From: Olleya sediminilitoris
GTDB lineage: Bacteria; Bacteroidota; Bacteroidia; Flavobacteriales; Flavobacteriaceae
DNA: 64,000 nucleotides
Assembly (NCBI RefSeq): GCF_016785945.1
Contig: NZ_JAEMEF010000011.1
Span: 60,858 to 124,857 of the forward strand
Direction: 5' to 3'
Position numbers and translations under genes: made by a program. Numbering within the stretch: the stretch's first letter is position 1; each line of letters opens with the position of its first letter. Below, piece by piece: positions 46,130 through 64,000 of the stretch. Below the pieces are notes generated by a model that worked only from the letters and a program-made list of their open reading frames with translations, was not told where the DNA came from and made no database searches.

Positions 46130-46260
46130 GTGTTGGCGGTTTAGTGCATTAGGGATAGTAACGACATCCTTTTTGTTTTACTAAAAAAAACAAAAAGATA
46201 TAGTGGATAGCGCGACCCTTTGTAGCTTTTCAGCGGAAAAAGGGTAATGCCCAAATAAAA
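46130..46260. repeat. Structured intergenic element of flavobacterial type
   Basis: Between tadA and the small membrane protein lies a non-coding block with two stems: CTTTTTGTTTT/AAAACAAAAAG (46169-46179 with 46187-46197) and ACCCTTT/AAAGGGT (46215-46221 with 46239-46245). The second encloses a GCT-GAAA-AGC minihairpin on the minus strand. Conserved-looking single strands such as GGGATAGTAACGACATCC and AGTGGATAGCGCGACCC flank them. I recall closely similar blocks between genes in other Flavobacteriaceae, so it is probably a dispersed repeat or RNA element. Only one copy is in the window. Confidence 0.5.
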
Positions 46261-62141: not shown

Positions 62142-63392
62142 ATGATTTTAGAAATGAAAGTGCCTTCTCCAGGCGAATCTATCACAGAAGTTGAAATAGC
62201 AGAATGGTTAGTTCAAGATGGTGATTATGTAGAAAAAGACCAAGCTATTGCTGAGGTAGATAGTGATAAAGCAACTTTAGAGCTACCTGCAGAAGCAAGC
62301 GGAATTATTACGCTTAAAGCGGAAGAAGGAGATGCTGTAGCAGTTGGCCAAGTAGTGTGTTTAATTGATACAAGTGCTGAAGCTCCAGCAAGTAGCACTT
62401 TTGAAGGTGGTGATGAAGGAGGTAACTCAAATGCTGAAAAAGATTTGGCTAAAGACCAAAAATCAACACCAAATAATGATTCAGCTAAAGCTGCTAACCC
62501 AGCAACAGAAACTTATGCCTCAGGTACTGCTAGTCCTGCAGCAAAAAAGATTTTAGCTGAAAAAAATATTCAAGCCTCAACAATTCAAGGCTCTGGTAAA
62601 GATGGACGTATTACAAAAGATGATGCAGTAAAAGCTGTACCGTCTATGGGAACTCCAACAGGAGGAAATCGTGGATCTTCAAATACTAAAATGTCAATGT
62701 TACGACGTAAAGTAGCAGAACGTTTAGTAGAAGCTAAAAATACAACAGCTATGCTAACTACTTTTAACGAAGTAGATATGGCTCCTATTTTTGAACTTAG
62801 AAAAGAATATAAAGAAACTTTCAAGGCTAAACATGGTGTAAGCTTAGGTTTTATGTCTTTCTTCTCATTGGCAGTTGTTCGTGCATTACAAATGTATCCT
62901 GCAGTAAACTCAATGATTGATGGTAAAGAAATGAAAAGCTTTGATTTTGTAGACATTAGTATTGCAGTATCTGGTCCTAAAGGATTAATGGTGCCAGTAA
63001 TAAGAAATGCAGAAAACTTAACTTTTAGAGGTGTTGAATCTGAAGTTAAACGCTTAGCACTAAGAGCTAGAGATGGACAAATTACAGTAGATGAAATGAC
63101 AGGTGGAACATTTACAATTACAAATGGAGGAGTATTTGGTAGTATGTTGTCTACACCTATTATTAATCCACCTCAAAGTGGTATTTTAGGTATGCATAAT
63201 ATTATTGAAAGACCAATAGCTGTAAATGGTAAGGTAGAAATACATCCAATGATGTATGTTGCGTTATCTTATGATCATAGAATAATTGATGGTAAAGAAA
63301 GTGTAGGCTTTTTAGTAGCTGTTAAAGAAGCTTTAGAAAACCCAACCGAGTTATTAATGAATAACGATATCAAGAAAGCATTAGAATTATAA
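62142..63392 (+). CDS. odhB: Dihydrolipoyllysine-residue succinyltransferase (E2 of 2-oxoglutarate dehydrogenase)
   Basis: 416 residues. The lipoyl domain (1-78) carries the lipoylated Lys43 in [13 protein letters not shown]. An Ala/Ser/Asn-rich linker leads to the peripheral subunit-binding domain (about 128-165: [26 protein letters not shown]). The catalytic acyltransferase domain (about 185-416) ends with the active-site motif [11 protein letters not shown], His379 and Asp383. It forms the cubic core of the complex. It is the last gene of the sucA unit, before a very strong terminator. Confidence 0.97.
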
Positions 63393-63410: not shown

Positions 63411-63446
63411 AAAAAAAGGGAGCAATTTAATTGCTCCCTTTTTTTA
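63411..63446. terminator. Strong bidirectional terminator after odhB
   Basis: A7GGGAGCAATT and AATTGCTCCCT7 arms around a 2-nt loop. Confidence 0.9.
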
Positions 63447-63554
63447 TTTAAAAAAGATAAAAATATTAAATGCAACAATAACAATAGTTAGTATTGTAAT
63501 ACATGCAATTATAATTGTATTCTGTTCTTTTGTTCTTTTTTCTAAATCTATCAT
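63444..63554 (-). CDS. Possible 36-residue membrane micropeptide
   Basis: A short frame starting MIDLEKRTKEQNTI with a strongly hydrophobic middle (IIIACITILTIVIVAFNIF) and a basic end, i.e. a single-pass membrane peptide. The charged N terminus plus one helix is more protein-like than expected by chance in this AT-rich stretch, but no start signal or homologue is known to me. The stop overlaps the odhB terminator. Confidence 0.35.
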   Translation of the reverse strand: MIDLEKRTKEQNTIIIACITILTIVIVAFNIFIFFK

Positions 63555-63573: not shown

Positions 63574-63643
63574 TTAAAAACTCTGTACCATTACAATACA
63601 GAGTTTTCTTTAAATAATTCTCCCTAAGAACTAATTAATAGCA
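63574..63643 (-). ncRNA. Candidate small RNA, copy A (outermost, diverged)
   Basis: On the minus strand TACCTTTA (63654-63647) is followed by a predicted start near 63643, a hairpin AGUUCU-UAGGG-AGAAUU (loop with GGG, around 63620-63636), and a terminator AAAACUCUGUA...UACAGAGUUUU (63577-63607) with a T run. It has the same layout and length as copies B and C, but the terminator stem has a different sequence. Confidence 0.55.
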
Positions 63644-63676
63644 TGGTAAAGGTATTGATTGTTAAGGATATATAAA

Positions 63677-63694
63677 ATACGTATAACTACGTAT
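63677..63694. promoter_or_regulatory. Palindromic site, copy A
   Basis: ATACGTATAACTACGTAT, a near palindrome immediately upstream of the TTTT -33 position of the copy A promoter. One base differs from the other copies (GA to TA), breaking one arm pair. Confidence 0.5.
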
Positions 63695-63710
63695 TTTTTC
63701 CCAATAGAAG

Positions 63711-63780
63711 CAAAAAAAAAGCTCTAAAACAGTAAATCGTTTTAAAGCTTTATCAATTCTCCCAAAATTGATTGTTAACA
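63711..63780 (-). ncRNA. Candidate small RNA, copy B
   Basis: Promoter TTTC-N19-TACCTTTA (ending 63784), predicted start near 63780. Hairpin UCAAUU-UUGGGAG-AAUUGA lies at 63753-63771. The terminator stem GCUUUAAAAC/GUUUUAGAGC (63721-63748) has one wobble pair and a T9 tail. About 69 nt in all. Confidence 0.65.
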
Positions 63781-63813
63781 TCGTAAAGGTAGAGTGAATA
63801 TTAGAGATATGAA

Positions 63814-63831
63814 ATACGTAGAACTACGTAT
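63814..63831. promoter_or_regulatory. Palindromic site, copy B
   Basis: ATACGTAGAACTACGTAT: 8-bp arms and a 2-bp spacer. It abuts the -33 box (TTTC, 63814-63811 on the minus strand) of copy B, the position expected for an activator. Confidence 0.6.
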
Positions 63832-63851
63832 TTTTTATTTGTAGTAGGTGT

Positions 63852-63920
63852 CAAAAAAAAAGCTCCAAAACAATAAACTGTTTCAGAGCTTTATCAATTC
63901 TCCCAAATTGATTAATAGCA
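63852..63920 (-). ncRNA. Candidate small RNA, copy C
   Basis: Promoter TTTC-N19-TACCTTTA (ending 63924), predicted start near 63920. Hairpin UCAAUU-UGGGAG-AAUUGA lies at 63894-63911. The terminator stem AGCUCUGAAAC/GUUUUGGAGCU (63861-63890) has two wobble pairs and a T9 tail. About 69 nt in all. Confidence 0.65.
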
Positions 63921-63953
63921 CTGTAAAGGTAGAGTGAATATTAGAGATATGAA

Positions 63954-63971
63954 ATACGTAGAACTACGTAT
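63954..63971. promoter_or_regulatory. Palindromic site, copy C
   Basis: ATACGTAGAACTACGTAT, identical to copy B, abutting the -33 box of copy C. Confidence 0.6.
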
Positions 63972-64000
63972 TTTTATTTGTAGTAGGTGTTAAAAAAAAG

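Follow-up and report, generated by a model that had tools for sequence, protein, structure and literature searches.

A tandem array of predicted small RNAs beside a response-regulator gene in Olleya and its relatives in the Flavobacteriaceae

The array at the edge of the window

The window is the 64-kb stretch of Olleya sediminilitoris DNA (64,000 nt) that was analyzed here. It ends where contig C3 of the assembly ends, and it carries there, on the minus strand, three complete tandem units spaced 137-141 nt apart. An operator palindrome, a promoter, a predicted RNA of ~70 nt, and a terminator make up each unit; the 5' core of the RNA (UGCUAUUAAU...GGGAG) is near-invariant. Of a fourth unit, cut by the window edge, the terminator end remains, with its T-run at 63992..64000 (-). 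A preliminary description of this DNA had claimed at least three tandem small-RNA-like units of ~140 bp, a fourth copy at the edge, and an intrinsic terminator in each. All of this is borne out, with a terminator stem and T-run located 3' of an upstream hairpin in every unit.

Unit A possesses the operator palindrome AATACGTAGTTCTACGTATT (63953..63972, -), located by sequence search. Its -7 box, TACCTTTA, lies at 63924..63931 (-) with TTTC 19 nt upstream. The predicted small RNA (sRNA) of ~70 nt spans 63853..63922 (-) and has a single-stranded 5' core, a GGG-loop hairpin, and the terminator, based on the fold and a match to R1, a covariance model of the family. Unit B has its palindrome at 63813..63832 (-), its -7 box TACCTTTA at 63784..63791 (-), and a predicted sRNA of ~71 nt at 63712..63782 (-), also from the fold and an R1 match (G000:C3:124565-124642). 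Unit C, the last unit, carries the palindrome TACGTAGTTATACGTA (63676..63695, -). Its predicted sRNA (63576..63645, -) contains the cross-genus consensus core GCTATTAATTAGTTCTTAGGGAGAATT and, by fold and unit comparison, a different terminator stem; this unit gives the top R1 score in the genome.

The palindrome takes the form AATACGTA-N4-TACGTATT in all three units. Allowing up to three mismatches, it is matched three times in 64 kb, always in the array. The expected number is 0.6, and three matches were reached in 4 of 100 shuffles. TTTC followed by 19 nt and the box, previously described as common to the units, holds for two of the three (TACCTTTA), while the third has TTTT instead. This layout is close to the Bacteroidetes sigma-ABfr promoter consensus, and the unit promoter thus appears Bacteroidetes-like. 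The described transcript of ~69 nt with a GGG-loop hairpin is borne out in the three window units, with a predicted length of 70-71 nt and a G-rich loop. The hairpin is missing from the consensus fold of the family. No ORF explains the conservation, as had been stated, since single-base indels occur in the core between copies of the same array. A peptide encoded by the core was considered and rejected because the indels break the frames and a start codon is not conserved.

On the 3' side of the last unit is a predicted small hydrophobic ORF of 36 aa with one predicted transmembrane segment (63444..63554, -). The convergent neighbor at 62142..63392 (+) is an ORF whose translation we take, from its likeness to known sequences, to be odhB, the E2 component of 2-oxoglutarate dehydrogenase.

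The full array and the RNA family

The array probably continues on a second contig, C22 (C22:1-1067). The start of C22 is an exact 117-nt overlap with the end of C3. Another seven complete units on C22 then lead to the gene of a NarL/FixJ-type response regulator (RR). Because of this overlap and the contiguous order of RR, array, small ORF, and odhB in relatives, C3 and C22 likely join into one array of at least ten units between odhB and the RR gene. R1 finds ten copies in this genome, all at the C3 and C22 ends. Natural copy number ranges from one to at least ten units. The RR stop codon is inside the first palindrome of the array (C22).

Conservation was measured on 76 units from 26 loci of 25 genomes. 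The palindrome and the core were required with limited mismatches, so that deviant units went uncounted; for the genome of the window this extraction missed three units (unit B among them) and counted the overlap unit twice. The distance from the palindrome to the core GCTATTAAT is 33 nt in 75 of the 76 units. In an alignment of 49 sequences, conservation lies in GCTATTAAT and the terminator. The single-stranded 5' core is better conserved than the hairpin, and the terminator stem drifts while the core stays, with double compensatory changes in 9 of 12 stem pairs. A hairpin with GG in its loop is predicted for 59 of the 76 units. Among the units of the named loci, a crude -7-box pattern is present in 48/83 and a T-run in 77/83.

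A search of other Flavobacteriaceae with R1, as the preliminary description proposed, matches 103 of 299 genomes and 86 of 236 genera. In a phylum-wide sample, matches come from 4 of 296 genomes: that of the window, two other Flavobacteriaceae, and one non-family genome with a marginal match. When named genomes were scanned for the exact core, at least 115 stretches were obtained, and 80 loci were used for unit counts. Among the exact-core matches listed are Algibacter, Hyunsoonleella, Olleya, Lacinutrix, Formosa, Tamlana, and Flavivirga, as well as metagenome-assembled genomes of Flavobacteriaceae, Flavobacteriales, and Bacteroidia; viral contigs gave no exact match.

In the proposed comparison with Rfam (release 15), the array matches no family at the gathering threshold. 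The 18 sub-threshold matches up to E = 10 reach at most 25.9 bits, under the cut-offs. The same window contains a Flavo-1 RNA (RF01705) at 46139-46221 (+) with 55.2 bits. In the open-licence PMC literature, no title or abstract start describing such an array was found.

Regulators and neighboring genes

The RR contains a receiver domain and a LuxR-type HTH (GerE). The preliminary description had placed the RNA family under one transcription factor. For the array in the window, the adjacent RR is the likely factor, because its stop codon is in the first palindrome, the gene and the units occur together across genera, and the operator type tracks the regulator type. Family-wide the claim needs amending, as at least two kinds of regulator, with different operators, accompany the core, and single loci have still others. 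The 83 core units of the 80 named loci follow the RR in 51 cases and a PAS-LuxR protein in 16, the class representative having PAS_3 and GerE domains. Another gene precedes six units, nine are at a locus edge, and one follows a third receiver-domain protein, found by motif and with a weak Pfam receiver match.

Operators differ accordingly. Those of RR units are ACGTA-type in 47/51, the other four being three with one substitution and one degenerate. PAS-LuxR units have ACTCAAnTTGAGT in 16/16. The units of L214, L224, and L249 carry ATACC-N-GGTAT, and in L214 another PAS-GerE protein adjoins. This correspondence and the position of the operator beside the -33 element lead us to infer binding of each operator by its neighboring regulator.

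Across 30 loci from the model search, the RR motif is found in the flank of 26 and the odhB motif in 25. The four loci lacking the RR motif are the cut contig of the window, G244, G049, and G201. G244 and G049 retain the sRNA, the protease gene, and odhB with the RR motif not nearby, and in G201 the unit is located elsewhere.

Genes upstream of the RR encode a retropepsin-like protein, a TPR-CHAT protein, and a PKD protein. In the genome of the window, the PKD protein, TPR-CHAT protein, retropepsin-like protease, and RR occupy L010:1059-6723 (C22), with an ECF-sigma-like gene on the opposite strand nearby, and the order is the same in related genomes G004 and G005. The run is a possible unstudied signalling system. 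At L183, L190, and L269, a TPR-kinase-like gene is accompanied by a divergent receiver protein whose C-terminus is DUF5932-like (below cut-off). In L183 and L269, from the same assembly, the sRNA core is downstream with a different upstream element.

Palindromes outside the array

Apart from the array, the genome of the window has 12 exact copies of the RR-type palindrome without the RNA. Dispersed palindrome sites are covered by L011-L019 on contigs C5, C10, C12, C15, C32, C34, and C37. Of 12 sites examined (11 exact and one with a single mismatch), ten share a dispersed promoter repeat and two are more divergent. All 12 have a co-oriented ORF (at least 60 aa, a loose criterion) that starts 126-360 nt downstream. 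Among the genes close by are AbiU/AIPR, SIR2-pAgo-like, and NucC-like nuclease genes, and an IS110-family transposase remnant is beside at least one palindrome. These sites look like gene cassettes under RR control. G004 has eight palindrome sites at C1:386-424 kb and 4251-4261 kb (L095-L097). They possess TAGGTTTG-type -7 boxes, one being TAGCTTTG. The surrounding genes are mixed in content and for the most part share one orientation, so that these stretches resemble a cassette array. A search for an integron integrase (TIGR02249) gave nothing over the cut-off, and sub-threshold matches were also found in 14/14 controls.

Complementarity to the RR leader

The leader of the RR mRNA is a likely target of the sRNAs, as suggested by its complementarity to the core. 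Leaders were defined as the 45 nt before the AUG, and 48 RR genes were compared with 438 other ORFs of the same named loci after dropping ORFs open at the locus edge or too near to it. The longest run of perfect complementarity to the core has a mean of 8.58 nt in RR leaders and 5.59 nt in controls (p = 8e-17); the species are related and not independent samples, so the leader p-values overstate independence. Two motifs that complement conserved elements of the RNA were also counted: TAATAGC is found in 23/48 RR leaders vs 4/438 controls and [AT]TCCCT or CTCCC in 21/48 vs 3/438. Unlike the longest-run measure, both motifs were picked after viewing the leaders of the first genomes, which partly overlap the named set.

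The complements are confined in position. Runs of at least 8 nt occur in 30/47 RR leaders, in 0/47 segments further upstream, and in 7/47 early coding segments. TAATAGC starts at -24 to -32 in 21 of 22 cases, and TCCCT or CTCCC starts at -11 to -19 in 18 of 21. In G006, the leader and the RNA variant of that genome match perfectly over 13 nt, and in the genome of the window CTCCCAAAA of the leader matches UUUUGGGAG of the RNA. The order of the motifs cannot be filled colinearly by one RNA molecule, and two RNAs or alternative use must therefore be assumed.

Duplex energies are less uniform. They were compared with 200 shuffles for 24 genomes with both a leader and units, leaving aside a 25th, G024. 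In 10 of the 24, no more than 20 shuffles attain the energy, and in the other 14 the number is higher. Within the genus of the window, four of ten genomes (G000, G003, G005, and G006) are at or below 13 of 200, and six are at 52-185. Own and foreign RNA variants pair equally with the leader (p = 0.24), hence leader-RNA co-variation is not supported. The 16 PAS-LuxR leaders display no overall enrichment of complements (p = 0.82), and CTCTC is present in 6/16. One of them, in L238, has a 14-nt perfect core complement (ATTCTCCCTAAGAA), the other 15 having at most 6 nt.

The favored explanation, with a probability of roughly 0.6, is that the RR switches on the sRNAs and that these pair with the leader of the RR's own mRNA and repress it. 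The active RR would bind the palindromes and turn on, rather than repress, all sRNA copies. Two RNA elements would pair: GCUAUUAA at the single-stranded 5' end, and AGGGAG or UUUUGGGAG in the G-rich loop of the hairpin. Pairing at the translation start of the RR would repress it, producing negative feedback that would grow stronger with the number of sRNA copies.

Alternative explanations

Trans-acting sRNAs induced by the regulator could instead have other mRNAs as their main targets, with pairing to the RR leader minor or absent in the genus of the window. Many copies under several regulators suit a broad target set, leader pairing is weak in 6/10 members of that genus, and FopS, as summarized in PMC11697453, combines a single-stranded 5' seed and a terminator with several mRNA targets. 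Additional targets are likely, but the searches, limited in extent, point to no enriched target class, and we regard this as a rather unlikely account of the main function. The core complement ATTAATAGCA has 82 sites in the genome of the window, some within the array, and the reversed control contains CG and is an unfair comparison. Among 30 sites inspected, two are within 60 nt of an ORF start. The single possible sRNA target seen is at C11:9604 (L144), where ATTAATAGCA is ~17 nt before the start of a gene that may encode an anti-sigma-like protein. The double motif TTAATAGC..TCCCT..ATG is found in at least 131 of 299 genomes and is not specific, as its reversed control also matches many. At 30 double-motif loci, the motif precedes an ORF that is not open far upstream in three: the RR (L325), an 84-aa protein (L335), and a 497-aa protein (L349). 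The 84-aa protein was rejected as a target, since TAATAGC is absent from all of its leaders (37 genes, 30 loci) and [AT]TCCCT is present in a single one.

The RNAs could also act as decoys, their GGGAG loop titrating an RNA-binding protein in the way that CsrB and RsmZ act on CsrA. A G-rich loop with GGA in a hairpin, the multicopy state, and the adjoining FixJ/NarL-type RR, a type to which GacA belongs, would fit this idea. CsrA (PF02599) was above the cut-off in 0/60 genomes including that of the window, while 3/14 control genomes were positive; one sub-threshold match came from a 0.3-Mb genome. Because CsrA was not found, a Csr-type decoy is very unlikely. The 5' single-stranded core is moreover more conserved than the hairpin, and a decoy has no need for complements in the RR leader.

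It is likewise quite improbable that the units are short attenuator leaders for the small membrane ORF, multiplied with no function in trans. A hydrophobic ORF of 25-58 aa does follow downstream in 40 of the 44 RR loci tested, although at least two are unlike the rest. It alternates with units in G014 and G022, and in G036 and G021 it comes straight after the RR and a variant palindrome, no sRNA having been seen there. The small ORF usually has an Asn near its C-terminus. Array-internal units, however, have their own terminator with the next palindrome directly after. The same core occurs at PAS-LuxR loci, where a convergent gene starts within 145 nt of it in 12/16, and the core is conserved while the terminator stem drifts. 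The last unit may still double as a leader of the small ORF. Least probable is a mobile or structural DNA repeat with no RNA function. The operator is also part of a dispersed repeat, partly beside IS110-family sequence. A transposon end, which the preliminary description had named as a finding that would refute it, does not account for the array: the dispersed IS110-associated repeats have the operator and promoter part in common with it, but the RNA body is confined to the array in this genome. R1 matches only the array in the genome of the window, the terminator covaries, and promoter spacing is constant across genera.

Significance and comparison with known systems

Repression of the RR by its own sRNAs may be one case of a wider arrangement, which we put forward tentatively. 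In the Flavobacteriaceae, one conserved sRNA core would be a common output, rewired to several LuxR-type sensors by an operator swap at a fixed promoter position. Each sensor would drive its own copies, and the RNA would feed back on the regulator. In the genus of the window, the RR operator would also drive the dispersed cassettes, some with anti-phage genes.

Regulation by sRNAs in Bacteroidota outside Bacteroides is little charted. The array offers a family-wide RNA with a named candidate regulator, an operator, a promoter, a candidate target, and copy-number variation, which opens both the strength of the feedback and the swapping of operators to direct tests in marine species that can be cultured. 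A further point of interest is the unstudied neighborhood of PKD protein, TPR-CHAT protein, retropepsin-like protease, and RR, whose predicted outputs are the sRNAs and perhaps a small membrane protein.

Within the Bacteroidota, FopS of Bacteroides is made up of 14 paralogous sRNAs that target PUL mRNAs together with RbpB, as outlined in PMC11697453 and PMC7366714. The array is similar to FopS/GibS in phylum, in the multicopy state, and in a conserved single-stranded 5' region followed by a terminator. It is set apart from them on the basis of their description in outline, and R1 had one marginal match outside the Flavobacteriaceae. The Rfp sRNAs are known from Flavobacterium psychrophilum and thus also belong to the Flavobacteriaceae; the description of them drawn on here (PMC9723704) mentions neither a tandem array nor a link to an RR.

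The proposed circuit would resemble those of the Vibrio Qrr and streptococcal csRNAs, with the array apparently a member of neither family. In Vibrio, the qrr genes are dispersed, are driven by sigma-54 and LuxO, depend on Hfq, and form a negative feedback loop with luxO. The units described here are in tandem, unlike the dispersed qrr genes. The array gave no match to the Qrr family of Rfam. What it has in common with Qrr1-5 (PMC2680268, in outline) is several sRNA copies driven by a regulator. Negative feedback is the other common trait, and both the drive and the feedback are predicted here.

Rfam gave no match of the array to a csRNA family, if one is included there. The streptococcal csRNAs are CiaR-dependent small RNAs, several similar ones being under a single RR (PMC3091779, in outline). 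The array shares with them several similar sRNAs and one RR, whose control is predicted here. It differs from the csRNAs, as outlined there and found in another phylum, in the tandem arrangement of units beside the regulator gene, in the attachment of one core to several LuxR-type regulators, and in the match between the RNA and the leader of the regulator.
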